The notes under the pieces were generated by a model, which was not told the origin of the DNA, ran no database searches, and saw only the letters and a list, made by a program, of their open reading frames with translations. Of a stretch of 53,745 nt of DNA, positions 4,025-15,834 are shown piece after piece; the stretch's first letter is position 1; the number at the start of each line of letters is the position of its first letter. Both the position numbers and the translations under genes were made by a program. Origin of the DNA: Longicatena caecimuris (lineage in GTDB: Bacteria > Bacillota_I > Bacilli_A > Erysipelotrichales > Erysipelotrichaceae); the NCBI RefSeq assembly GCF_004341945.1, contig NZ_SMBP01000022.1, positions 1-53,745 on the forward strand, in the 5' to 3' direction.

Positions 4025-6019
4025 TCAGTTCTCTTCCTGTGGTAAAGTCGGTGGGCCTGCCGTTAATCCTATCTCATTTAATACTTCCATGACCTCACTA
4101 GCATCTTGGGATTGACGGATGCGATCTAACAGACTTTCGTTTTCAATCAACTCATAAAAATGGGCGAAGAAGGATCCAATCTCACTGTTTTTTGTAAAAT
4201 CTAAAGCCATCGTAAAGACTAAATCAACCTTTTCATCTTTTGCCCAGATAATTGGATGATCTAAGATTAAGACAGAGATAGCACCTTGATTGACATGTTT
4301 TTTATATTCATGAGGAATACTGACTCCATTCCCGATTGAGGTAGGTAAGATAGATTCTCTTACCTTGATGTTTGTAATGAATTCCGGTGTTACATAGTGA
4401 TGCTGTTCCAAAAGGGAAGAACCATATGCTAAGGCTTCATCTTTTGTTTTCGCATGATAATGTAAAGCAATTAGATTTTCATGGAACAGATTATTTGATA
4501 CTAAAATGGATTGTTTTTCCTTTTGGATCTGTTTCAAACGCTCATCAATCAATAAGATATCTTGATTATCGAAGCGTGGACTAATCAATAAATACTCTTC
4601 TTCGCTTTTATCTGTAAGCGGCAAAGGACTGACTAAGAGGTCGTATTCCTGATCAATCTGATTGATTTGTTCATAATGCAAAGTGGAGATTGTGTTAAGA
4701 AAGGACAGACTCTTTGATACTTTTTGACGGATATAACGGGAGGTGTTTTCATCCTTTGTCGTCACTAAGATGATACGCAGGGTAAATAAATCATCTTTTA
4801 AGGCATTGCTTAACAGCATCGTAATGTAGGCAATATCATTTTCACTGAATTTAATGTGTAACTTTTGTTCAATTGGTTGAATGTTCGTTAAAACAATTCC
4901 ATACAAGGAAGGTAAATCTTTTTTGATATCGCGGATAAAGGAAGTGCCATTCATCATCTGATAGCTTTTTTGTAGTTTCTTCTTTTGAAACAGCATGCCC
5001 AAATCACTGATCAGACCATCGTTGGTGATGATTTTTTTATTGACGATGATGGATTTCAGCTTTTGGATAAATTGCTCGGCAATGGCTTCATAATAATCCA
5101 TTTTGATGGTGCTGGAGGCCCTGTCATAAGCGCCGTTCAAAGCGAATTGTGCCGCCAAACAATGATATTCCATTGTAAGGTTTTCTTTATTGTAAAAAGG
5201 CAATGCTGTATTAATAAGCGTGCGTGAGGCTTCGTATTGCAGATCGCTGATCTTAGCACGGTTTAAGATATTTGCCTCTTCGATGATATTACCGGTCGAG
5301 ATGCGAATCAGACTAAGCGCGATATATTCACAGAGTTGTGTGAAAGAAATTTCATCATAAGTAAATTTCAGCGTCGTTTCAGCATCCAATAATAGTTTCT
5401 GCAACATCATTAGATCCTGGTTGGGATAGCAGTGCAGAAAGTAATGATAAAAATGGGCATCAATGCGATAATCGATGCCGTCCATCATCGGCGTTTGTGT
5501 TTCTTCTTCATTGAAATAGGAATTATTTTCAAAAATAATGGCCTGTCGTTTATTAAATTCGTTCCCCTGCAGACAGACCCCGCGATTCTTAATGATCGAT
5601 AGTTTTAAATCAAAATACGATAACCAGTTTTTTATTAATTCCAGATCTTTTGTGATGATCGTTCGGCCTACGGCTAAATCATCTGCAAAAATCTGTACGG
5701 TATAATTTGAATTTCGCTGAAATAAAATATCTAAAATATAATGTTTACGAAAATCAAAGGAGTAGGCTTTGTTTCGAGGATCATTACTTGTATTGGCCAA
5801 TTCCTGCAAACGCTTTTCTTCCCCCTGTAGCAAAAATCCTTTCCGCGGCAGTAGCTGTAATTCGGCACCACAGGATTCGATATATTCACGGACATAACGC
5901 ATATTGTGTTTCACGGTGCTTAAGGACATATTGATCTCTTTGGCGATCTGTTTTGATGTTATCGGTTCGTCCTTTTCCAGAAGAATATGGATAATTTTCT
6001 CCGTTGTTATATCTAGCAT
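4025..6019 (-). CDS. BglG-family PRD/EIIA transcriptional regulator of the sugar operon
   Basis: A 664-residue regulator. Residues about 5-70 form a winged HTH (TSKQIAKEINMSLSTVKHNM helix pair, then a LLPRKGFLL wing). Two PRD-like helical domains follow (about 195-410), then an EIIB-like segment, then a C-terminal fructose/mannitol-type EIIA (about 515-655) with the phospho-acceptor His570 in GNGVSIPH. This is the architecture of DNA-binding activators such as MtlR, ManR and LicR, which are controlled by PTS phosphorylation. The conserved histidines of both PRDs seem to be replaced (EYIALSL, YHCLAAQF, LGMLF, YITMLL), leaving the EIIA site as the main PTS input. It starts at ATG 6019 after GAGGTGAT. 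It diverges from the operon at 6326 and very likely controls it through the inverted repeats between them. Confidence 0.85.
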   Translation of the reverse strand: MLDITTEKIIHILLEKDEPITSKQIAKEINMSLSTVKHNMRYVREYIESCGAELQLLPRKGFLLQGEEKRLQELANTSNDPRNKAYSFDFRKHYILDILFQRNSNYTVQIFADDLAVGRTIITKDLELIKNWLSYFDLKLSIIKNRGVCLQGNEFNKRQAIIFENNSYFNEEETQTPMMDGIDYRIDAHFYHYFLHCYPNQDLMMLQKLLLDAETTLKFTYDEISFTQLCEYIALSLIRISTGNIIEEANILNRAKISDLQYEASRTLINTALPFYNKENLTMEYHCLAAQFALNGAYDRASSTIKMDYYEAIAEQFIQKLKSIIVNKKIITNDGLISDLGMLFQKKKLQKSYQMMNGTSFIRDIKKDLPSLYGIVLTNIQPIEQKLHIKFSENDIAYITMLLSNALKDDLFTLRIILVTTKDENTSRYIRQKVSKSLSFLNTISTLHYEQINQIDQEYDLLVSPLPLTDKSEEEYLLISPRFDNQDILLIDERLKQIQKEKQSILVSNNLFHENLIALHYHAKTKDEALAYGSSLLEQHHYVTPEFITNIKVRESILPTSIGNGVSIPHEYKKHVNQGAISVLILDHPIIWAKDEKVDLVFTMALDFTKNSEIGSFFAHFYELIENESLLDRIRQSQDASEVMEVLNEIGLTAGPPTLPQEEN

Positions 6020-6142: not shown

Positions 6143-6241
6143 TTGCACGGAAAGCGGTGCAATTCGGATAAAAGTCATTGCACGGATGGAGCTTTATCGG
6201 TGCGAAAAGAAGGGCATCTTTTTGCACATACATTCGTGCAA
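6143..6241. promoter_or_regulatory. Three inverted-repeat operators in the divergent region
   Basis: Two copies of TTGCAC-N8-GTGCAA are exact in both half sites (6143-6162 and 6222-6241). Between them a third pair has wider spacing and one mismatch (TTGCAC 6178-6183, GTGCGA 6200-6205). Left half sites are 35 and 44 bases apart. They lie between the divergent regulator and the operon it faces, so they are best read as binding sites for that regulator. The rest of 6020-6325 holds only the two promoters and ribosome binding sites. Confidence 0.75.
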
Positions 6242-6325: not shown

Positions 6326-7189
6326 ATGAAGATCACATTTGGCGTGGATAGTTTCATCTGGACAGAAAACTTCTCTGAAAAAGATCTTTGGATCATCAAG
6401 AAAGCGGAAGAATTGGGATTTGAGGTAATTGATTTTGCGATTGCCCATCCTGAAACCTTCCCCACGGAACGGGTCAAAGAAGAGCTTGCGAAAACTCACT
6501 TAAGAGCCGTGACAACGACGACCTTGGATGCTTCTACCAACTTGATCAGTGAAGATGAAAAAGTCAGAAGATGCGGTATTGAAGCGATGAAACAATTGGT
6601 TGATATCAATAAAGAATTAAGCAGCACGATTCTTGGCGGTGTCAATTATGCCGGCTGGGGATGCTTAAGCGGAAAACCGCGAACCGAAGAAGAATGGAAG
6701 CATTCTGTGGAAGCGATGCGAGAAGTTGGTGAATATGCGTTAAAGGTACATCCACAACTTAATATTTGTGTCGAAGCGGTGAATCGCTTTGAAACCCATT
6801 TTATTAACATCGCAGAAGATGGCGTTCGCTATTGCAAAGATGTTGGCACCGGAAACATCAAGGTGCATTTGGATTGTTTCCATATGATTCGTGAGGAGAA
6901 AAGCTTTACCAAAGCGGTAGAAACATGCGGCAAGGAATATCTGGGATATGTCCATGTAAATGAAAATGATCGTGGGATTCCGGGAACCGGCATGGTACCA
7001 TTCAAGGAATTTTTTACCGCCTTAAAAAAGATCGGTTACAGTGAACCATGCACGATCGAAAGCTTTGATCCAAGCTTTGAAGAATTGAATAAGAATTGTG
7101 CAATTTGGCGCAGCTTTGCGAAAACCGGCGAAGAGCTGGCAGTGAAGGGACTGGCAAATCTGCAAAAGATTGCGGATGAAATTAACTAG
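6326..7189 (+). CDS. TIM-barrel sugar epimerase/isomerase (D-tagatose/D-psicose 3-epimerase-like)
   Basis: A 287-residue AP-endonuclease-2-type TIM barrel. The four metal and catalytic residues of ketose 3-epimerases are present with the usual spacing: Glu150 (CVEAVNRFETH), Asp183 (VHLDCFHM), His210 (GYVHVNENDRG) and Glu245 (CTIESFDP). Members interconvert ketoses or their phosphates at C3, or isomerise related sugars, using Mn2+ or Co2+ in the cytoplasm. First gene of the operon, start ATG after AAAGGAGG. The aldolase gene follows 12 bases later. In context it probably epimerises the incoming ketose phosphate so that the aldolase can cleave it. The exact substrate cannot be read from sequence; an L-erythrulose-phosphate-type isomerase is an alternative. 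Confidence 0.8.
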   Translation: MKITFGVDSFIWTENFSEKDLWIIKKAEELGFEVIDFAIAHPETFPTERVKEELAKTHLRAVTTTTLDASTNLISEDEKVRRCGIEAMKQLVDINKELSSTILGGVNYAGWGCLSGKPRTEEEWKHSVEAMREVGEYALKVHPQLNICVEAVNRFETHFINIAEDGVRYCKDVGTGNIKVHLDCFHMIREEKSFTKAVETCGKEYLGYVHVNENDRGIPGTGMVPFKEFFTALKKIGYSEPCTIESFDPSFEELNKNCAIWRSFAKTGEELAVKGLANLQKIADEIN

Positions 7190-7201
7190 GAGGATAAGAA
7201 A

Positions 7202-8086
7202 ATGTTAGTAAATTTAGAGAAAATTTTAAAGGATGCAGAAGCGGGAGGATATGCCATCGGATGTATCAACACACCAAACATGACAACATTGCGTGCAGTT
7301 GTCGATGCTGCTGAAGAAATGCAGACACCAATCATCATTGACCATGCACAGGTGCATGATCCATTGATTCCTATTGAATTGATCGGACCTAAAATGGTGG
7401 AATATGCAAAACAGGCAAGTGTTCCGGTATGTGTACATTTGGATCATGGCAGTGATTATAATTTCGTTATGCGTGCATTGCGCTGTGGATTCAGCTCAAT
7501 CATGTATGATTTGAGTGCAAAGCCATTTGAAGAGAACGTGGAAAACTTAAAAGTATTTACGGAAATGGCACACAAGTTAGGTGTTACCGTGGAAGCAGAA
7601 TTAGGAGTAATGACTTCCACAGAAGATGATACGCATGGTGATGGTGGAGGATGGACACATGAAACTATCAAGAAAACCTTTACCGATCCTGCACAGGCTG
7701 CTGAATTTGCACAGCGTACCGGGGTTGATGCATTAGCTGTATGCTTTGGTACGGCACATGGTATTTATGCCGAACCACCAGTATTGGATATCGAACGTGT
7801 AAAAGCCATTCGGGAAGCTATGCCAAAAGATTGTCGTGTGGTCATGCATGGTGGCAGCGGTGTTGATGCTGATCAGGTACGTGCAGCTATCAATGAAGGG
7901 GTATCCAAAGTAAATTATTACTCTTATATGGCAAAAGCTTGCAGCAAGCACATGTATGAATATCTGAAAGATAGAGATGGCAATGCATACTGGCATGAAG
8001 CCGATGAAGAAGCTTATCGTTTCATGAAGGAATACGCAAAAGAAGTGCTGGCTGTATTTAAAAACGGCAAAACCTGTACGTTATAG
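7202..8086 (+). CDS. Class II (zinc) ketose-phosphate aldolase, FbaA/GatY family
   Basis: A 294-residue class II aldolase. Visible motifs: HLDHG at 79-83 with catalytic Asp81 and zinc ligand His82, EAELG at 131-135, TAHG with zinc ligand His186, and HGGSG at 216-220 with the third zinc ligand His216. The family cleaves ketose (bis)phosphates to DHAP and an aldehyde. Where fructose- and tagatose-bisphosphate aldolases have a conserved NVNTD-like phosphate-binding segment after the last strand, this protein has KVNYYSYM (237-244), hinting at a different substrate. Start ATG after AGGAGG. It is in tight operon order after the epimerase and before PTS genes, so it probably splits the phosphorylated, epimerised ketose. 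Confidence 0.85.
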   Translation: MLVNLEKILKDAEAGGYAIGCINTPNMTTLRAVVDAAEEMQTPIIIDHAQVHDPLIPIELIGPKMVEYAKQASVPVCVHLDHGSDYNFVMRALRCGFSSIMYDLSAKPFEENVENLKVFTEMAHKLGVTVEAELGVMTSTEDDTHGDGGGWTHETIKKTFTDPAQAAEFAQRTGVDALAVCFGTAHGIYAEPPVLDIERVKAIREAMPKDCRVVMHGGSGVDADQVRAAINEGVSKVNYYSYMAKACSKHMYEYLKDRDGNAYWHEADEEAYRFMKEYAKEVLAVFKNGKTCTL

Positions 8087-8101
8087 GAAGGGTAAGCGCA
8101 T

Positions 8102-8572
8102 ATGGCGGATATTCAGTTAGGAAATGTGCTGACAAAGGAAGCGATGATCTTAGATCATACGCCCTTTAACAGCAAGGAAGAAATGTTTCAGCTATTGAGT
8201 GAAAAGTTTTTCGAAGCCGGTGTTATAACCAATCAGCAAGCGTATCTTACTGCACTTCGTGAGCGCGAAGCTATGGGACCTACGTATATGGGAAATCTCA
8301 TCGGTCTTCCTCATGGTCGCTGTGATGAAGTGGTAAAATCCGGAATTGCGTTTTGTCGCTGTTCCTCTCCCTTCCTATATCAGAGCTGTGGAGAAGAGGG
8401 CGATGTAAAATATGTCTTTATGCTTGCGATTCCAGGGAATCAAAGTGCAGATCAATACATGCGCGTATTGGCAACTTTAGCCGGCTTGCTGGCAAAAGAA
8501 GAATTTGTCGATCAGTTGGATTCGGTGCACAGCTATGATGAAATGTTGGCACTGATGAAGGCTTGTTCATAA
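8102..8572 (+). CDS. PTS fructose-family EIIA component
   Basis: A 156-residue stand-alone EIIA of the fructose/mannitol fold. The phospho-acceptor is His71 in the motif LIGLPHGR. The Glu-rich N-terminal part and the REREAMGPTYMGN segment before the active site are typical. It takes phosphate from HPr-His-P and passes it to the EIIB encoded next. Start ATG after GGAAGGGTAAGC. The gene sits between the aldolase and EIIB and belongs to a three-gene EIIA-EIIB-EIIC permease. It could also phosphorylate or bind the regulator encoded at 4025-6019. Confidence 0.88.
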   Translation: MADIQLGNVLTKEAMILDHTPFNSKEEMFQLLSEKFFEAGVITNQQAYLTALREREAMGPTYMGNLIGLPHGRCDEVVKSGIAFCRCSSPFLYQSCGEEGDVKYVFMLAIPGNQSADQYMRVLATLAGLLAKEEFVDQLDSVHSYDEMLALMKACS

Positions 8573-8592
8573 AAAAGAAAGGAGGGTTTGTG

Positions 8593-8886
8593 ATGAAGAT
8601 CGTAGCTATCACATCATGTGCAACGGGGATTGCGCATACTTACATGGCTGCTGAAGCATTAAAAAAATTCTGCAAGAAAAACCATCATGAATGTAAGGTG
8701 GAAACACAAGGGGCATTGGGCATTGAAAATCAGCTGAAACCTTACGAAATTGAAGCTGCTGATTTGATCGTATTCGCTAACGATGTCGGCATCAGTAAGG
8801 CAGAACGCTTTGATAAATATAAAGATAAGATCAAAAAGTTCTCACCCCATGATGTCATCAAAGATCCAAGCATTATTTTGAAATAA
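8593..8886 (+). CDS. PTS fructose-family EIIB component
   Basis: A 97-residue EIIB of the fructose type. The phospho-acceptor is Cys9 in ITSCATGIAHTYMAAEAL, the standard P-loop-like signature of this family. Start chosen at ATG 8593 because AAAGGAGG lies just upstream; a longer in-frame reading from 8563 would put that site inside the gene. It accepts phosphate from EIIA His71 and phosphorylates the sugar as it passes through EIIC. Separate A, B and C subunits, rather than the fused FruA form, are common for secondary ketose or hexitol systems in Firmicutes. Confidence 0.88.
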   Translation: MKIVAITSCATGIAHTYMAAEALKKFCKKNHHECKVETQGALGIENQLKPYEIEAADLIVFANDVGISKAERFDKYKDKIKKFSPHDVIKDPSIILK

Positions 8887-8911
8887 TCTTAATGAAAAGG
8901 AGATAGAAAAC

Positions 8912-9961
8912 ATGAAAGATAAATTAAAAGAGATACAGGAGGCCCTACTTACCGGCGTTTCCTACATGCTTCCATTCGTTATTTCCGGCGGTTTGTTAAT
9001 TGCCATAGGTTTCCTGCTGGGGGGCTATAATATTCCAAATGATGTTGCGCAAGGGGGCAACTTCGCTTCTACAATGTTCTGGTTAGGAAAAGCAGCCTTT
9101 GGCTTGATGGTACCTATCCTGGGTGCTTATACGGCTTATAGTATTGCCGATAAGCCAGGTATTGCGCCAGGTATGATCGCTGGTTGGATGGCTACCGATC
9201 CTTGGGGCTTAAATCAGGCTTCTGGTTTCCTTGGCGGTTTGATCGGTGGTATCATCGCTGGTTACTTAGTCTTATTATTAAAGAAGATCCCTATGCCAAT
9301 GACGCTGCGCAGCTTGCTGCCTACATTGATCATTCCATTATTAGGCGTTACAGCTATGGGTCTAATTATGGTATACATCATCGGTGGTCCTATCGCTGCG
9401 GTTACCAATGCATTAACTGATATGCTGAATTCTCTGGGAACCGGAAACTTACTGCTGTTAGGTATCATTCAAGGATGCATGTTGGCATTTGATATGGGCG
9501 GTCCTTGTAATAAAGTTGCTTATGCATTCGCTTTGGCTGCTATGGATACTGGAAACTATATGGTCATGGGTGCAAACTTCGTTGGTTCCATCACACCTCC
9601 ATTAGGTATTGCAATTGCTATCCTTGTTAAGAAAAGCAAATTTACAAGCTCTGAAAGAAACTCTTTAGCTGGTTTACTTGCAGGTGCTGCTGGTATGATT
9701 ACAGAATTTGCAATTCCATTTGCTGCCAGTGATCCAGTAAAAGTAATTCCATCTTTGATGGCTGGTTCTGCTGTTGGTTGTACCGTATCTTATATGCTAG
9801 GCTTAACCATTCAGGCTCCACATGGTGGTTTGTTTGTAGCCTTTGCAATGAATAATCCAATCTACTTCATCATTGCTGCGGTAGTTGGGGCAATTGTTAC
9901 GGCTGCTTTATTAGTCGTATTAAAAAAGGATGTTCCCGCCGAAGAAGTTGAAGCTGAATAA
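8912..9961 (+). CDS. PTS fructose-family EIIC permease
   Basis: A 349-residue integral membrane protein with about eight to ten helices. Family signatures include the N-terminal LLTGVSYMLPFVISGGLLIA, the loop DMGGPCNKVAYAFALAAMD, and the late SDPVKVIPSLMAGSAVG and APHGGLFVAF segments, all typical of fructose-family EIIC. It moves the sugar inward while EIIB phosphorylates it, normally at C1 of a ketose. Start ATG after AAAAGGAGAT. With the neighbouring EIIA and EIIB it makes a complete permease dedicated to the substrate of this operon. The sugar is not fructose-specific by any residue I can identify. Confidence 0.87.
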   Translation: MKDKLKEIQEALLTGVSYMLPFVISGGLLIAIGFLLGGYNIPNDVAQGGNFASTMFWLGKAAFGLMVPILGAYTAYSIADKPGIAPGMIAGWMATDPWGLNQASGFLGGLIGGIIAGYLVLLLKKIPMPMTLRSLLPTLIIPLLGVTAMGLIMVYIIGGPIAAVTNALTDMLNSLGTGNLLLLGIIQGCMLAFDMGGPCNKVAYAFALAAMDTGNYMVMGANFVGSITPPLGIAIAILVKKSKFTSSERNSLAGLLAGAAGMITEFAIPFAASDPVKVIPSLMAGSAVGCTVSYMLGLTIQAPHGGLFVAFAMNNPIYFIIAAVVGAIVTAALLVVLKKDVPAEEVEAE

Positions 9962-9985
9962 GAAAAGAGGAGAAAAGACAAGTTT

Positions 9986-10900
9986 ATGGCAAAATTATTT
10001 GATATCATGGGAAATTTCCCATTCAAACCTGAGGATAAAAAACCAATGCTGATTCGTAAACAGGATTATTCTACAGCATTGTATCCACCAAACAACGCAT
10101 TTACCAGTGATAATACGTTCACGATGATTACAACCGATACCTTCATGCTGGGTATCTATGAATTAGGACCTGGTGGTGTATTTGCACCATTGGATATCCA
10201 TCCTGGTGATGAATCTTACTACATCCTGGATGGACCGGTCGTACAGCGCAGCGGCAATGGCCAGTTTGCTTACTTAGAAACCGGAGAAGGTCTGTTCATG
10301 CCGGAAGGCGCATGGCATTGTTGTCATAATTTCTCAGATCGCAAAGCGCGTATTCTGTACTTCATCACACCAAAGGCATGGAGCGAACAGATTCCACCGG
10401 CAGTTATTCCAACCGATGAAGAAACAAAGTTCTACAAAGGACCGAACAACGATGCATTACCAAATATGCGCGATAAGATTCATGATATTTCCCGTCAGGG
10501 CTGTACCGATGATATCGGACATTGGCCAGTGGATGCAAAAGAAGCTAGAGAAACCGGTGCCGTTTATGCCGTTCGTGACTTTGAAAAATTAAACAATGTG
10601 CATGGAACCAGTCATCCAATGCTAATGCGTTTCATCACCAGCAATGACTATGGACATTTTGGTGAATTTATCTTGCCGGCCGGTGGTTATGGGCCTCGCT
10701 GCTCTGATCCTGATACACATAAAGGAGATGCCGCCTTGTATTGTGTGGATGGACCGGTAACGGTGAATTTGGTAGAGCTGGAAGAAAGCTTCGTCATGGA
10801 ACCGGAAGATACTTTCTTTATTCCAGCTGGTGTTAGCTATCAGTTGGTAAACTTTGAAGCAAAACCGGTGAAAGTAGTCTTTGCGATTACCGAGCTGTAA
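9986..10900 (+). CDS. Bicupin domain protein
   Basis: A 304-residue protein with two cupin barrels. The first (about 55-130) keeps a metal site: His72 and Glu76 in IHPGDESYYILDG, then PEGAWHCCHNF with His111 and His114. The second (about 205-300) has the PAGGYG...THKGDAALYCVDGP and FFIPAGVSYQLVNF segments but lacks the final histidine, so it is probably structural. Cupins in sugar operons are often isomerases, epimerases or lactone-acting enzymes, but I cannot assign a reaction. Start ATG after AAAGAGGAG. It follows EIIC directly in the operon, so a catabolic or mutarotase-like role on the same sugar is the reasonable inference. Confidence 0.75.
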   Translation: MAKLFDIMGNFPFKPEDKKPMLIRKQDYSTALYPPNNAFTSDNTFTMITTDTFMLGIYELGPGGVFAPLDIHPGDESYYILDGPVVQRSGNGQFAYLETGEGLFMPEGAWHCCHNFSDRKARILYFITPKAWSEQIPPAVIPTDEETKFYKGPNNDALPNMRDKIHDISRQGCTDDIGHWPVDAKEARETGAVYAVRDFEKLNNVHGTSHPMLMRFITSNDYGHFGEFILPAGGYGPRCSDPDTHKGDAALYCVDGPVTVNLVELEESFVMEPEDTFFIPAGVSYQLVNFEAKPVKVVFAITEL

Positions 10901-10983
10901 TAATAACTACTGTCTGAGAAGAAAACAAGAAAGGGAAAACGTGTTCTTCGTATTACAGACTTGCGAAAGGAATTCGTCGATGA

Positions 10984-11008
10984 GATGAGTGGAATTGCTC
11001 CACTCATC
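10984..11008 (+). other. Perfect intra-operon hairpin without a T run
   Basis: GATGAGTGGA (10984-10993) pairs exactly with TCCACTCATC (10999-11008) around a five-base loop. No T run follows, so it is not a normal terminator. It lies in the 137-base gap between the bicupin and rpiB-like genes and may protect or end a processed transcript. Confidence 0.55.
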
Positions 11009-11037
11009 TGATCATTATGATATAAAAGGTGAAGAAA

Positions 11038-11484
11038 ATGAAAATTGTGATTGGATGTGATGAAGCTGCTTTTGATATGAAAGAGGCAGTTCATCAGCGA
11101 TTAAAAGAACTACAGTATGATGTCATTGATGTGGGAGTCTATGATAAAAACCCATCCTTGTACCCGGACACGGCAGAAAAGCTGTGCAAAGAAATCGTCG
11201 AAGGGCGTGCCGAAAAAGGGATATTGATGTGTGGAACCGGTATCGGAATGGCGATCACAGCCAACAAAATACCAGGCATTCGCGCAGCCGTAGGGCATGA
11301 TGTCTTTTCCGTAGAACGCAGCCGTAAAAGCAATGACTGTCAAGTTCTCTGCATGGGAGCCAGAGTAATTGCCATCCAATCTGCATTGATGTTGATGGAA
11401 CGCTGGCTGCAGTGTGAATTTGCCGGTGGGGCAAGTAAGGCAAAGGTAGATAGGATCAGGGAAATCGAGTGTCAATACAGATAG
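11038..11484 (+). CDS. RpiB/LacAB-family sugar-phosphate isomerase
   Basis: A 148-residue aldose-ketose phosphate isomerase. The family core is clear: KIVIGCDEAAFDMKEAV at the N-terminus, GILMCGTGIGMAITANKIPGI carrying the catalytic Cys, and a CQVLCMGARVI strand. Three positions differ from E. coli RpiB as I recall it: the His after CD is Glu (CDEAAF), the active-site His of SRxHND is Ser (SRKSND), and the C-terminal GGRH is GGAS. These changes argue for a substrate other than ribose 5-phosphate. Relatives act on galactose 6-phosphate or erythrulose phosphates. Start ATG 11038 after AAGGTGAAG. DhaK follows with 11 bases between. Confidence 0.82.
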   Translation: MKIVIGCDEAAFDMKEAVHQRLKELQYDVIDVGVYDKNPSLYPDTAEKLCKEIVEGRAEKGILMCGTGIGMAITANKIPGIRAAVGHDVFSVERSRKSNDCQVLCMGARVIAIQSALMLMERWLQCEFAGGASKAKVDRIREIECQYR

Positions 11485-11495
11485 GAGGAAACAAC

Positions 11496-12506
11496 ATGCA
11501 AAGAATCATTAACAATTGTGATGAAGTCGTTGAAGATATGCTGAAAGGTTTTGAGCGCTGTCATCATGATCTGATACGCGTTGATGAAAATAATCCTCGT
11601 GTTGTCATTTCAAAAGAAGCTACTAAGAAGCGAAAGGTTGGTATCGTTACCGGAGGCGGCAGTGGGCATAAACCAGCGTTTATCGGCTATTGCGGAAAGA
11701 ATATGGTCGATGCCGTGGCCGTTGGTGAAATTTTCTCTTCTCCTACGGCAAAATCATTTTACGATGCTTTCTGTGCGGTTGATCAAGGTATGGGCGTTGC
11801 CTGCTTGTATGGCAATTATGCCGGTGATAACATGAATGTAAAGATGGCGATGGAATTAGCGGAAGATGATGATATCGTCGTAAAAACAGTCGTTGCCAAT
11901 GATGATGTGGCCAGTGCTGATAAAGCAGATCGTACGAAACGTCGCGGTGTTGCCGGAGAAATCTTCATGTGGAAGGTTGGCGGTGCCAAGGCAGCGATGG
12001 GAGCTAGCTTGGATGAAGTGATTGCTGCTGCCCAAAAGGCCATTGATCATACACGCAGTGTCGGTGTTGGGTTAAGCCCATGTACGATACCGGCGAATGG
12101 AAAACCGAATTTCACCATTGAAGAAGGAACGATGGAATTTGGTATCGGTCATCATGGGGAACCGGGTATTAAAGTTGAAAAACTTGGTACGGCAAAAGAA
12201 ATGGCGAAAGAAATGACCCGTTTGGTCATTGAAGATAAACCATTTAAAGCAGGCAGTGAAGTCGCTGTGTTGGTATCTGGTTTAGGGGCAACACCGGTCA
12301 TGGAACAATATATCTTCTTTGAAGAAGTCGCCAAGCTCTTAGAGGAACAGGGTATTTGTATTTATAAATCTTATGTCGGCAATTACTTTACGTCCTTGGA
12401 AATGAATGGTGTAACCTTAACGATCATGGAATTGGATGAGGAATTAAAGGAATGTGTCGATATGGAAGTAGAAACCATGGGTATGACCCAGTTGGCAAGG
12501 AGATAA
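11496..12506 (+). CDS. dhaK: Dihydroxyacetone kinase-like subunit DhaK
   Basis: A 336-residue DhaK. Substrate-binding features are intact: GGGSGHKP with His58, GNYAGDNMNVKMAME with the active Asp111, and GIGHHGEPGI, where His220 is the residue that forms a hemiaminal with the ketone substrate in known DhaK. It works with DhaL, encoded three bases downstream. Start ATG 11496 after AGGAGG; a longer in-frame reading from 11469 was rejected because it contains this site. No dhaM gene is in the window. The pair may therefore use ATP like eukaryotic triokinase, or borrow a DhaM encoded elsewhere. The substrate may be dihydroxyacetone, glyceraldehyde or a small ketose. Confidence 0.87.
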   Translation: MQRIINNCDEVVEDMLKGFERCHHDLIRVDENNPRVVISKEATKKRKVGIVTGGGSGHKPAFIGYCGKNMVDAVAVGEIFSSPTAKSFYDAFCAVDQGMGVACLYGNYAGDNMNVKMAMELAEDDDIVVKTVVANDDVASADKADRTKRRGVAGEIFMWKVGGAKAAMGASLDEVIAAAQKAIDHTRSVGVGLSPCTIPANGKPNFTIEEGTMEFGIGHHGEPGIKVEKLGTAKEMAKEMTRLVIEDKPFKAGSEVAVLVSGLGATPVMEQYIFFEEVAKLLEEQGICIYKSYVGNYFTSLEMNGVTLTIMELDEELKECVDMEVETMGMTQLARR

Positions 12507-12509
12507 CTT

Positions 12510-13157
12510 ATGGAAACCTTACGTAATCAAGGAAATGCCGGTATCGTTTTGCAAGTCATCGATGCCATTCATGAACAAGCATCTTACTTGAGTGAGATTG
12601 ATGGTGCAACCGGAGATGGAGATCACGGCATTAATATGAATAAAGGCTTTATGATGGCAAAGGAGCGCATTGAGCCAAGCGATTCTTTTGCGGAAGCTTT
12701 AAAAATCTTAGGACGTACCTTAGTCATGGACATTGGCGGCAGTATGGGACCTATTTACGGCACCATGTTTTCTAAGCTGAGCCGGGTTTTAAAAAAGGCA
12801 GAGCCTATCACGAAAGAAGCTTTTTTAGAAGCATTGGAAAATGCGGTACAAGGTTTGATGGATCTGGCTGGAGCTAAGGTTGGCGATAAGACATTAGTGG
12901 ATACGATTTATCCGGCTTGTCAGGCCTATCAAGCAGCTATGAAACAAGATGCAGAGTTTTCACAGTGCTTAAGAGAAATGGCGAAAGGGGCAGAAGCCGG
13001 TAAAGAAAGCACAAAGGATTTAGTAGCGAAAATCGGCAGAGCTGCTCGTTTAGGCGAACGCAGCCGCGGTCATCTGGATGCAGGAGCTACCTCCTGTTGG
13101 ATCATTTTAACAACGATGGCAAATGCGATGTTAGCGCAGCTGCAGTCACGAGAGTAG
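12510..13157 (+). CDS. dhaL: Dihydroxyacetone kinase-like nucleotide-binding subunit DhaL
   Basis: A 215-residue all-helical DhaL. The two-magnesium nucleotide site is intact: Asp31, Asp36 and Asp38 in DGATGDGDHGINM. Later GGSMGPIYGTMF and the DAGATSC C-terminal loop also fit the family. DhaL carries ADP or ATP and transfers phosphate to the substrate bound by DhaK. It starts three bases after the dhaK stop with AAGGAGA at the end of that gene as its ribosome binding site, so the two are translated together. A terminator-like hairpin follows at 13161-13190, which may lower expression of the last three genes. Confidence 0.87.
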   Translation: METLRNQGNAGIVLQVIDAIHEQASYLSEIDGATGDGDHGINMNKGFMMAKERIEPSDSFAEALKILGRTLVMDIGGSMGPIYGTMFSKLSRVLKKAEPITKEAFLEALENAVQGLMDLAGAKVGDKTLVDTIYPACQAYQAAMKQDAEFSQCLREMAKGAEAGKESTKDLVAKIGRAARLGERSRGHLDAGATSCWIILTTMANAMLAQLQSRE

Positions 13158-13160
13158 ACA

Positions 13161-13190
13161 GATGATTTTCTTTTGAGAATCATCTTTTCT
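13161..13190 (+). terminator. Intra-operon terminator or attenuator after dhaL
   Basis: GATGATTTTC (13161-13170) pairs with GAGAATCATC (13175-13184), one G-U, around TTTT, followed by TTTTCT. It looks like a moderate intrinsic terminator that would let some transcripts pass to the downstream HAD and transketolase genes. Confidence 0.6.
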
Positions 13191-13210
13191 CTAGAAAGGA
13201 AAAGGTAGAA

Positions 13211-13270
13211 ATGTTTGATATGTACATGACTACCAGGAAAAAAGATGCACAAGAAATATTTTTTCTTTGA
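13211..13270 (+). CDS. Possible 19-residue leader peptide overlapping the HAD gene
   Basis: A short frame, MFDMYMTTRKKDAQEIFFL, starts at ATG 13211 after a good AAAGGAAAAGG site and ends at 13270, 26 bases inside the HAD gene that starts at 13245. The HAD gene's own site (GGAAAAAAG) lies within it. This could couple translation of the two. The peptide itself shows no known motif. It may simply be fortuitous. Confidence 0.3.
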   Translation: MFDMYMTTRKKDAQEIFFL

Positions 13271-14018
13271 TATAGATGGAACTTTAACGGATCGATCCAC
13301 GGGTGAAATTGTTCCCAGTGCGTTAGCAACGTTGAAAAAGCTGGAAGCAGCAGGCCATTTTGTCAGCATCGCTACTGGTCGTGCCCATTATAAAGCAAGA
13401 GGCTTCATGGAAAAGGTTGGCTTGTCGAATATGGTGTGTAATGGCGGTGTTGGTCTAGTCATTGATCATGAACTGGTGGAAAATCGCCCTTTGGATCTAT
13501 CGAAGGCAAAAGCGATTTGTAAACAGGCAGATGCGTTAGGTTATGGCCTTCTTTTAATGCTAGATGATTCCTTGCGTTGCTACAGCAAAGATAATCGTTT
13601 TCGTAAACAAATGGGGGAACGCTTAGAACCAACGGAATACATCATTGATGAAACCTTAGATTATGATGCACTGAGTGCTATTTATAAGATTTATATTTCC
13701 ATTCCAAAGGAAGAAGAAGAGCGTTTAACACTGCGCAATACCTTAGGACATCTGCGCTTTGCGGGCAATTATTTAATGTTTCAATATGATGAAAAGGATA
13801 AAGGCATTGAACATATGATCGAACGTATCCATGGTCGTATCGAGGATGTCGTGGTCTTTGGCGATGATACCAACGATCTTGTCATGTTTGACAAACGATG
13901 GTGTAGCATTGCGATGGGCAATGGCAGTGAAGATATCAAACAAAAAGCAGATTATGTAACGGATACGAATGTAAGGGATGGCATTCAAAAGGCATGTCAG
14001 CATTTTCACTGGATTTAA
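13245..14018 (+). CDS. Cof-type HAD-family sugar phosphatase
   Basis: A 257-residue HAD hydrolase of the Cof (IIB cap) group. Motif I is FFFDIDGTLTD with nucleophile Asp9 and acid Asp11. Motif II is SIATGR. Motif IV is VFGDDTNDLVMF with the magnesium-binding Asp207 and Asp208. These enzymes remove phosphate from sugar phosphates and related small molecules. In the operon it may clear a dead-end phosphate or relieve sugar-phosphate stress. Start ATG 13245 after GGAAAAAAG. It sits downstream of the partial terminator and a possible leader peptide, so its expression may be lower than that of the upstream genes. Confidence 0.83.
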   Translation: MHKKYFFFDIDGTLTDRSTGEIVPSALATLKKLEAAGHFVSIATGRAHYKARGFMEKVGLSNMVCNGGVGLVIDHELVENRPLDLSKAKAICKQADALGYGLLLMLDDSLRCYSKDNRFRKQMGERLEPTEYIIDETLDYDALSAIYKIYISIPKEEEERLTLRNTLGHLRFAGNYLMFQYDEKDKGIEHMIERIHGRIEDVVVFGDDTNDLVMFDKRWCSIAMGNGSEDIKQKADYVTDTNVRDGIQKACQHFHWI

Positions 14019-14089
14019 CAAAATAGAAAGAAAGGATCATTGGTAAGAGCTACAGGATGTTGTACGATTACTGATTAGGATAAAGGGAT

Positions 14090-14914
14090 ATGAAAAAAGA
14101 AGAATTACAGCAGCTAGCACGACAAGTGCGTAAGGATGTGCTGTGGGAGATCTTTAGCGCACAAAGCGGTCATCCCGGCGGTTCTTTAAGTGCTGCCGAT
14201 CTTGGTACAGTCTTATTTTTTGATGAGATGGATATAACAAAGGAAAATGCCCAAGGTCAAAAACGTGATCGTTTGGTTTTTAGCAAGGGTCATGCGGCAC
14301 CACTGCTTTATGCGTTATTGTGTGAGAAAGGACTATTGGAAAAGGATGATTTAACAACTTTTCGCCGCATCAATACCCGCTTACAAGGACATCCGAATAT
14401 GAATTATATTGATGGGGTAGATATGTCTACGGGATCTTTAGGACAAGGGATTTCCGCCGCAGTAGGGATGGCACTAGCAAATCGCTTAGATGGCAATACC
14501 CATCGCATATATGCATTGTTAGGTGATGGGGAATGTCAGGAAGGGGAAGTATGGGAGGCATTGATGAGTGCTGCCCATTATCAATTCGATAATTTATGTG
14601 TCATCATCGATCACAATGGTTTACAAATTGATGGCAAGGTGGATGATGTCATGAAGGTAGATTCGCTGTATGACAAAGCGATTGCCTTTGGCTGTCATGC
14701 CCTGCAGATCAATGGGCATGACATGGATGCTATCAAAACGGCCTTTGCACAGGCTCGTCAGATACAAGGAAAACCGACGGTGATCATTGCCGATACAATT
14801 AAAGGGAAAGGGGTATCCTTTATGGAAAATGAAGCAGGATGGCATGGCAAAGCACCAAATGCAACGCAATTTGAACAAGCTATCAAGGACTTAGGAGGTG
14901 ATGCACAATGGTAA
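14090..14914 (+). CDS. Transketolase, N-terminal (thiamine diphosphate-binding) subunit
   Basis: A 274-residue N-terminal half of a split transketolase. It has SGHPGGSLSAADLG with His28, FSKGHAAPLLYALL, STGSLGQGISAAVGMA, and the diphosphate-binding motif GDGECQEGEVWEA (145-157) with Asn176 in DHNGLQI. It binds ThDP with Mg2+. The partner subunit starts inside its last codons. Split transketolases are frequent in Firmicutes catabolic operons; AptA/AptB, which act on apulose 4-phosphate, are one characterised case. It moves two-carbon ketol units between sugar phosphates. Start ATG after AAAGGGAT. Confidence 0.88.
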   Translation: MKKEELQQLARQVRKDVLWEIFSAQSGHPGGSLSAADLGTVLFFDEMDITKENAQGQKRDRLVFSKGHAAPLLYALLCEKGLLEKDDLTTFRRINTRLQGHPNMNYIDGVDMSTGSLGQGISAAVGMALANRLDGNTHRIYALLGDGECQEGEVWEALMSAAHYQFDNLCVIIDHNGLQIDGKVDDVMKVDSLYDKAIAFGCHALQINGHDMDAIKTAFAQARQIQGKPTVIIADTIKGKGVSFMENEAGWHGKAPNATQFEQAIKDLGGDAQW

Positions 14915-15834
14915 AAAAGGCAACGCGTGAGGCGTATGGGGAAGCGTTAGCGCAACTCGTAAAACAAAATCCTGACATTGTTGTTTTAGATGCTGATTTA
15001 GCAGGAAGCACGAAAACAAGCGAAGCGAAAAAAGTATGTCCACAGCGTCATTTTGATATGGGCATCGCGGAAAGTAACATGATGGGTGTGGCAGCCGGCT
15101 TGGCAGCCAGTGGCAAGATCCCATTTGCCAGCAGCTTTGCGATGTTTGCGGCAGGAAGAGCCTATGAACAGATTCGCAATGCGATCGGGTATCCACATCT
15201 GAATGTAAAGATATGTGCAACTCATGCCGGATTAAGCGTTGGAGAAGATGGTGCTACTCATCAATGTAATGAAGATCTGGCATTGATGCGCACGATTCCC
15301 GGAATGTGTGTCTTACAGCCTTGTGATGCGCAGCAGACCACCCAGATGATCAAGGCCATAGCGAGGATGGATGGTCCTTGTTATGTTCGCTTAAGTCGAA
15401 TGGCTGTTGATGCGGTTTATGATGAAAATATGCCGTTTACGATAGGAAAAGGGAATGTCCTACAGAAAGGGGAAAAAATAGCCATCGTAGCCAGTGGAAT
15501 CATGGTCCAAGAAGCTTTACAGGCAGCAAAACAATTACCATTTGTGCCGACGATTGTCGATATGCATACCATAAAACCAATTGATAAAGCATTGTTATGT
15601 TCGCTGGCGAAGGATCATCAGCTGATCGTAACGGCAGAAGAGCATTCTATAATCGGTGGTTTAGGCAGTGCCGTTGCCGAAGTTCTTGCGCAGCAGCCAC
15701 ATGCCTGTGCGTTGCGCATGGTAGGTGTTTTCGATGTGTATGGAGAAAGTGGCACCCCTCAAGATGTCTTGCATAAATATGGCATTGATGCAAAAACTAT
15801 TGTAAACACGATTTTAACACAACCCTTTCAATAA
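14908..15834 (+). CDS. Transketolase, C-terminal (pyrimidine-binding) subunit
   Basis: A 308-residue C-terminal half of the split transketolase. Glu55 in DMGIAESNMMG is the conserved glutamate that activates the thiamine ring. SFAMFAAGRAYEQIRN, the ATHAGLSVGEDGATHQ loop and TAEEHSIIGGLGSAVAEV are further family signatures. It overlaps the N-terminal subunit gene by seven bases, with AGGAGGTG inside that gene as its ribosome binding site, so the two are made in equal amounts. It is the last gene of the operon, with a clear terminator at 15851. With RpiB it would connect the operon's product to the pentose phosphate pool. Confidence 0.88.
   Translation: MVKKATREAYGEALAQLVKQNPDIVVLDADLAGSTKTSEAKKVCPQRHFDMGIAESNMMGVAAGLAASGKIPFASSFAMFAAGRAYEQIRNAIGYPHLNVKICATHAGLSVGEDGATHQCNEDLALMRTIPGMCVLQPCDAQQTTQMIKAIARMDGPCYVRLSRMAVDAVYDENMPFTIGKGNVLQKGEKIAIVASGIMVQEALQAAKQLPFVPTIVDMHTIKPIDKALLCSLAKDHQLIVTAEEHSIIGGLGSAVAEVLAQQPHACALRMVGVFDVYGESGTPQDVLHKYGIDAKTIVNTILTQPFQ

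Follow-up and report, generated by a model that had tools for sequence, protein, structure and literature searches.

A nine-gene phosphotransferase operon of Longicatena caecimuris and its possible role in heptulose catabolism

Which sugar is consumed by the gene cluster at positions 6326-15834 of contig NZ_SMBP01000022.1 of Longicatena caecimuris (assembly GCF_004341945.1; the whole stretch analyzed, 53,745 nucleotides, is called the window here)? A first-pass annotation described the cluster as a twelve-gene operon of a phosphotransferase system (PTS). All twelve genes were found on the plus strand, mostly tightly spaced and with a clear ribosome-binding site (RBS) on most, and Pfam and NCBIfam confirmed their families: AP_endonuc_2 3-epimerase-like protein, PF01116 aldolase, EIIA-2, fructose EIIB, fructose EIIC, two-cupin protein (bicupin), LacAB_RpiB, Dak1, Dak2, Cof-type HAD, and transketolase N and C halves. 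They are, however, not one conserved unit: a hairpin follows dhaL, the HAD gene is rare among 39 related loci, and transketolase is found in none of them. The conserved unit consists of nine genes, epi-ald-IIA-IIB-IIC-bicupin-rpiB-dhaK-dhaL, at 6326-13157, and the identical order through dhaL is seen in Merdibacter (locus L021). From gene content, we propose at roughly even odds (probability about 0.5) that this unit is a catabolic operon for a heptulose, a C7 ketose. The nine genes are as follows, with the starts of EIIB (8593), rpiB (11038), and dhaK (11496) revised from the sequence.

6326-7189, plus strand: epi, ketose 3-epimerase of the AP_endonuc_2 type (D-tagatose/D-psicose 3-epimerase superfamily), proposed D-/L-erythrulose 3-epimerase (NCBIfam, PDB match, alternation with a LerI-like TIM-barrel isomerase)
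7202-8086, plus strand: ald, class II (PF01116) ketose-phosphate aldolase, proposed heptulose-1-phosphate aldolase (family matches; 37 of 39 loci)
8102-8572, plus strand: PTS EIIA, fructose type (Pfam/NCBIfam)
8593-8886, plus strand: PTS EIIB, fructose type (Pfam/NCBIfam; start picked from the RBS)
8912-9961, plus strand: PTS EIIC, fructose type (TIGR01427, 315.7 bits against a cut-off of 157.55)
9986-10900, plus strand: bicupin, proposed free-aldose (aldotetrose) ketol-isomerase (genes that fill its slot, rhizobial homologue, alignment)
11038-11484, plus strand: rpiB, RpiB-like isomerase (NCBIfam RpiB and DerI matches)
11496-12506, plus strand: dhaK, proposed substrate-binding subunit of an erythrulose kinase (Dak1; epi-linked DhaK clade)
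12510-13157, plus strand: dhaL, nucleotide-binding kinase subunit (Dak2)

In the proposed route, a hept-2-ulose would be imported as its 1-phosphate by the fructose-type PTS and split by the class II aldolase into dihydroxyacetone phosphate (DHAP) and a free aldotetrose, which the bicupin would isomerize to erythrulose. The 3-epimerase would then set the configuration at C3, DhaKL would phosphorylate erythrulose to D-erythrulose 4-phosphate, the RpiB-like enzyme would convert this into D-erythrose 4-phosphate, and transketolase, of which a local extra copy is present here, would feed the product into the pentose phosphate pathway. The C7 ketose 1-phosphate follows from the release of a free C4 product together with DHAP. 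For cleavage, aldose isomerization, phosphorylation, and the RpiB step, both the order and the reaction class are backed by comparative genomics; we infer the substrate, chain length, stereochemistry, phosphorylation sites, and all activities.

The bicupin was the query of the scan that yielded the 39 related loci, so that its presence in 39 of 39 is by design. The loci were drawn from Erysipelotrichia, Lachnospiraceae, Negativicutes, Bacilli, and Coriobacteriia, all of which are spanned by the core of bicupin, aldolase, and PTS, and searching genomes across the phylum turned up no additional carriers of the bicupin. Aldolase genes were counted in 37 loci, EIIC in 34, EIIA in 32, EIIB in 31, and dhaK in 32, with epi, rpiB, and dhaL in 25 each. 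The PTS is of the fructose type in 34 of 39 loci; L049, L051, and L052 instead have ABC transporters and kinases of the FGGY or PfkB type, and in Oceanobacillus, a class I DhnA-type aldolase takes the place of the class II enzyme. What the loci have in common is thus phosphorylating uptake, an aldolase of the DHAP type, and the bicupin. The window aldolase is a class II ketose-bisphosphate aldolase by its scores on PF01116 (274.9 bits; cut-off, 25.5) and TIGR00167 (219.2 bits; cut-off, 215.6) and by the motifs HLDHG, GTAHG, and HGGSG at positions 79, 183, and 216, and it lies below the equivalog cut-offs for fructose-1,6-bisphosphate aldolase (228.5 versus 423 bits) and tagatose-bisphosphate aldolase (198.3 versus 443.55 bits). 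The earlier suggestion that an unusual ketose is consumed by way of a PTS is supported; the pathway probably proceeds through a ketose 1-phosphate that an aldolase cleaves to DHAP and an aldehyde. In nine loci, a separate PTS enzyme I gene, sometimes accompanied by HPr, is found in the operon or next to it (L024, L028, L029, L031, L035, L041, L050, L055, and L058), and in L027, L030, L032, L033, L034, L040, and L042, a gene that groups with mannitol-type PTS EII is located about 10 kb or less from it.

The second half of the route is carried by the distribution of epi, which alternates with a TIM-barrel isomerase (TIM): 25 of the 39 loci have epi, 5 have TIM, and none has both. Epi shows the motifs of the D-tagatose 3-epimerase superfamily (VEAVNRFE, HLDCFH, HVNENDRG, and IESFDP), mostly kept across 27 sequences and surrounding what we take to be the metal ligands; its best PDB match is an L-ribulose 3-epimerase, and it scored 176.9 bits against the D-psicose 3-epimerase model PsicseEpim (NF051856), short of the equivalog cut-off of 300. 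The best PDB match of TIM is L-erythrulose-1-phosphate isomerase, and TIM clusters with those of the dhaKL-rpiB-tal-tkt operon of Pasteurella multocida and the oiaX-rpiB locus of R. etli. DhaK splits into two clades that follow epi or TIM, and its type tracks epi in 24 of 24 cases. Where neither gene is in the locus and DhaK is of the TIM clade (L035 and L055), a TIM (83% identical) lies elsewhere in the genome, a prediction that held; L049 has epi elsewhere in the genome, and L025 and L051 have partial epi matches. RpiB scored 142.8 bits on ribose-5-phosphate isomerase B, above the cut-off of 138.65. The alternation of epi and TIM, the matching DhaK clades, and the likeness of TIM to L-erythrulose-1-phosphate isomerase together point to a module that would turn a tetrulose into erythrose 4-phosphate, and its parts, a DAK kinase, RpiB, and an interchangeable TIM or epimerase, are all present at the level of gene content. 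The published chemistry of such a module runs from erythrulose phosphate to erythrose 4-phosphate (PMC10733421; PMC12780249). The genome has no DhaM above cut-off (the best match scored 20.8 bits; cut-off, 98.25), which argues against a PTS-dependent DhaKLM and makes DhaKL probably ATP dependent.

This distribution bears on a fructolysis-like route for a hexulose, e.g., L-sorbose, tagatose, or allulose, in which the ketose 1-phosphate would be cleaved to DHAP and glyceraldehyde, the bicupin would turn the latter into dihydroxyacetone (DHA), and DhaKL would form DHAP. Such a route requires the core and a kinase only, and a fructose-type PTS, a class II aldolase, and a DhaKL of the DHA-kinase family are all at hand, but it gives no role to the 3-epimerase, RpiB, and the LerI-like TIM despite their co-segregation with two DhaK clades. 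In addition, the lysine before NYxGD in the DHA-kinase DhaK of Escherichia coli and Lactococcus lactis is a glycine in the window protein and in every epi-linked DhaK, and we regard the hexulose route as unlikely. Two steps of the first-pass annotation are not supported: epimerization was placed before cleavage, whereas epi, which 14 of the 39 loci lack, accompanies rpiB and dhaKL rather than the aldolase, and DhaKL was taken for a triokinase, whereas it belongs with RpiB and the epimerase or LerI-like TIM to the tetrulose module.

For the bicupin, Pfam gave Cupin_2 alone above cut-off, with no IolB/KduI family match and no PF07385 match; the structure model (mean pLDDT, 72) resembles quercetinase and oxalate decarboxylase folds in a general way only, and since these are generic bicupins, it indicated no function. 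H72, E76, and H111 are invariant in the alignment and are candidate metal ligands. The clue comes from a relative without the bicupin (G081), which has two operons (L139 and L140), each with PTS, aldolase, epi, rpiB, dhaK, and dhaL. The remaining slot is filled in one operon by AraA (660.4 bits; L-arabinose-isomerase equivalog cut-off, 622) and in the other by a D-lyxose-isomerase-like cupin (Lyx_isomer, PF07385; 24.6 bits; cut-off, 20.8). Because these known isomerases fill its slot in otherwise matching operons, the simplest view is that the bicupin is an aldose-ketose isomerase acting on a free aldose. AraA and lyxose isomerase use free, unphosphorylated sugars; PTS import phosphorylates the sugar, and therefore the sole free sugar, and the bicupin substrate, would be the aldolase product. 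The paralogous operons of G081 differ in aldolase and isomerase, as though matched to different sugar stereoisomers, and in the L049 genome a PF07385 gene (280.5 bits) adjoins an epi (68%). Could the bicupin instead act before the aldolase, converting a phosphorylated import product to a ketose phosphate, much as IolB acts ahead of IolC and IolJ in the breakdown of inositol? The bicupin is almost always within the operon of the aldolase, and in L051 it adjoins an IolC-like PfkB kinase and the aldolase; the families of its two slot-mates, however, act on unphosphorylated sugars, and it has no IolB/KduI match, making this order improbable.

As for the tetrose, the sugars that AraA takes share the configuration of L-threose at C2 and C3, and those that D-lyxose isomerase takes share that of L-erythrose. 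The stereochemistry of the two isomerases suggests that the aldolase releases L-threose or L-erythrose, and hence that the heptulose has the L configuration at C6, e.g., perseulose (L-galacto-heptulose). Both tetroses would yield L-erythrulose, from which D-erythrulose 4-phosphate could be reached either by epi and a D-erythrulose kinase or by an L-erythrulose kinase and LerI. This agreement between isomerase stereochemistry and an L-erythrulose entry point is suggestive rather than proof, and pentose substrates are possible.

Several points weigh against the heptulose reading. The slot AraA exceeds the L-arabinose-isomerase cut-off, and on rhizobial plasmids a split bicupin homologue (about 42%) accompanies an ABC transporter, ribulokinase AraB, and AraD, with AraA absent nearby, so that the isomerase may act on pentoses. 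The free aldose would then be a pentose, either cut from an octulose 1-phosphate along with DHAP or imported separately, isomerized, epimerized, and phosphorylated by DhaKL. The L-ribulose 3-epimerase match of epi fits this; the LerI-like TIM and the DAK-type kinases with RpiB indicate C4, octuloses are even rarer than heptuloses, and a free pentose would leave the PTS without a role, and we give the pentose alternative a low probability. As for the heptulose reading itself, heptuloses are rare, the literature searched held no link between heptuloses and PTS, and a fructose-type EIIC leaves the substrate unfixed. RpiB falls below the DerI cut-off (138.7 of 240 bits), epi and a clear LerI are both missing from L046, L038 and L052 (both metagenome-assembled genomes [MAGs]) lack epi and TIM alike, the second TIM of L043 is just 30% identical to its operon TIM, and in L031 the locus contains TIM and epi lies elsewhere. 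The L052 genome was judged incomplete because no triosephosphate isomerase (TPI) was seen.

Other observations concern the bicupin and its neighbors. The rhizobial homologue (L071:12001-12872 and L072:12001-12872) is split over two neighboring single-cupin genes that lie with those for AraB, AraD, and an ABC transporter of the ribose type, and the bicupin frame is seemingly broken in one MAG contig (L059:9465-10375). A family of 397 to 406 amino acids lies beside epi-rpiB-dhaKL modules or ABC/bicupin loci (L152:10782-11975, minus strand; L150:8648-9844; L049:484-1701; L052:1742-2947); it had no Pfam, NCBIfam, or PDB match, its motifs KPEAYYF and GTGWYTPAGVxH resemble type I phosphomannose isomerases, and its structure model (397 residues) was poor (pLDDT, 50) and left unused. 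Downstream of the bicupin in L049, a 3-hexulose-6-phosphate synthase (11824-12453; 241.5 bits; cut-off, 200) occurs with Rpe, RpiB, and xylulokinases. It raised the idea of formaldehyde release (erythrulose 1-phosphate to DHAP and formaldehyde), which was rejected because DhaKL would be superfluous and the occurrence is single.

The unit is flanked by the following features.

4025-6019, minus strand: divergent regulator with HTH_11, Mga HTH, PRD, and EIIA-2 domains (Pfam)
6143-6162, no strand: candidate operator, palindrome TTGCAC-N8-GTGCAA (motif scan)
6178-6205, no strand: candidate operator, imperfect and wider palindrome (motif scan)
6222-6241, no strand: candidate operator, palindrome TTGCAC-N8-GTGCAA (motif scan)
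13160-13185, plus strand: terminator-like hairpin 3' of dhaL, 11 pairs and a T-rich tail (sequence)
13245-14018, plus strand: Cof-type HAD phosphatase, accessory (family match)
14090-14914, plus strand: transketolase N-terminal half, local addition (family match)
14908-15834, plus strand: transketolase C-terminal half, local addition (family match; the genome has three such split pairs)

The regulator, which is likely a phosphorylation-controlled activator, and the palindromes lie outside the span first annotated; a homologue of this PRD/EIIA protein is present in 26 of the 39 loci. The 306-bp divergent region holds three TTGCAC-N-GTGCRA palindromes (5 strand matches versus 0.16 expected), and exact TTGCAC-N8-GTGCAA also stands upstream of epi in L021, L026, L045, and L057. 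A promoter scan found fewer sites than in shuffles, and the sole Rfam match was a group II intron at the window edge (29-93). The HAD gene recurs in three other loci: L021 (inverted), L040, and L044.

The 2.9-Mb genome belongs to the family of Merdibacter massiliensis and encodes a single DhaK, two RpiB (34% identical to each other), one TPI, six PF01116 aldolases, and, besides three split transketolases, a fourth transketolase match in a 622-amino-acid frame that is probably DXS. Degradation of apiose or another branched sugar through the split transketolase, as by AptA/AptB, was also put forward by the first-pass annotation and is very improbable: although the pair is there (14090-15834) and LerI and RpiB homologues adjoin oiaX, an apionate-pathway gene, in R. 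etli, transketolase is not conserved with the operon in any related locus, the window pair is 68 to 70% identical to another split pair of the genome, and such a route needs no aldolase, DhaKL, or epimerase.

Each enzyme comes from a known superfamily, and their combination as a route was not found described, in line with the first impression that the set matches no whole pathway; the literature searched (on split transketolase, heptulose and PTS, and heptulose catabolism), which took in few subscription journals, held neither this operon nor this gene combination. The closest systems are the tetritol/erythrulose pathways of Mycolicibacterium smegmatis and Brucella (LerK, DerK, LerI, DerI, EryC, EryH, and EryI), which likewise use a DAK-family kinase, an RpiB-type isomerase, and a TIM or AP_endonuc_2 epimerase to reach D-erythrose 4-phosphate (PMC10733421; PMC12780249). 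In contrast to these, the window operon has PTS import and, as noted early on, no dehydrogenase, and its erythrulose would arise from aldol cleavage and aldose isomerization instead of from a tetritol. Fructolysis and other ketose-1-phosphate aldolase routes share the cleavage to DHAP and an aldehyde, but the aldehyde here is proposed to be a tetrose, isomerized and then salvaged to erythrose 4-phosphate. The TRAP-linked dhaKL-rpiB-TIM-tal-tkt operon of P. multocida (L079) joins DhaKL, RpiB, a LerI-clade TIM, and transketolase; its transporter is of the TRAP type, and it lacks a PTS, an aldolase, and a bicupin. D-lyxose isomerase (PF07385) and other cupin isomerases share with the bicupin the fold and the proposed aldose-ketose isomerization, whereas the bicupin has two cupin domains.

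Beyond this operon, we tentatively suggest, as a possibility short of even odds, that gut bacteria have a hitherto undescribed family of PTS pathways for heptuloses, where varied aldolases and isomerases (bicupin, AraA type, and lyxose-isomerase type) would serve different C7 ketoses, a tetrose would pass through L-erythrulose to erythrose 4-phosphate, and the bicupin would represent a new aldotetrose isomerase family. Heptuloses are present in avocado (PMC6606701). If the proposal is true, a conserved bicupin family would gain a function, the operons would provide a test set of swappable enzymes, one salvage module would be common to unrelated sugar routes, and gut bacteria would be tied to the rare C7 sugars of plants.

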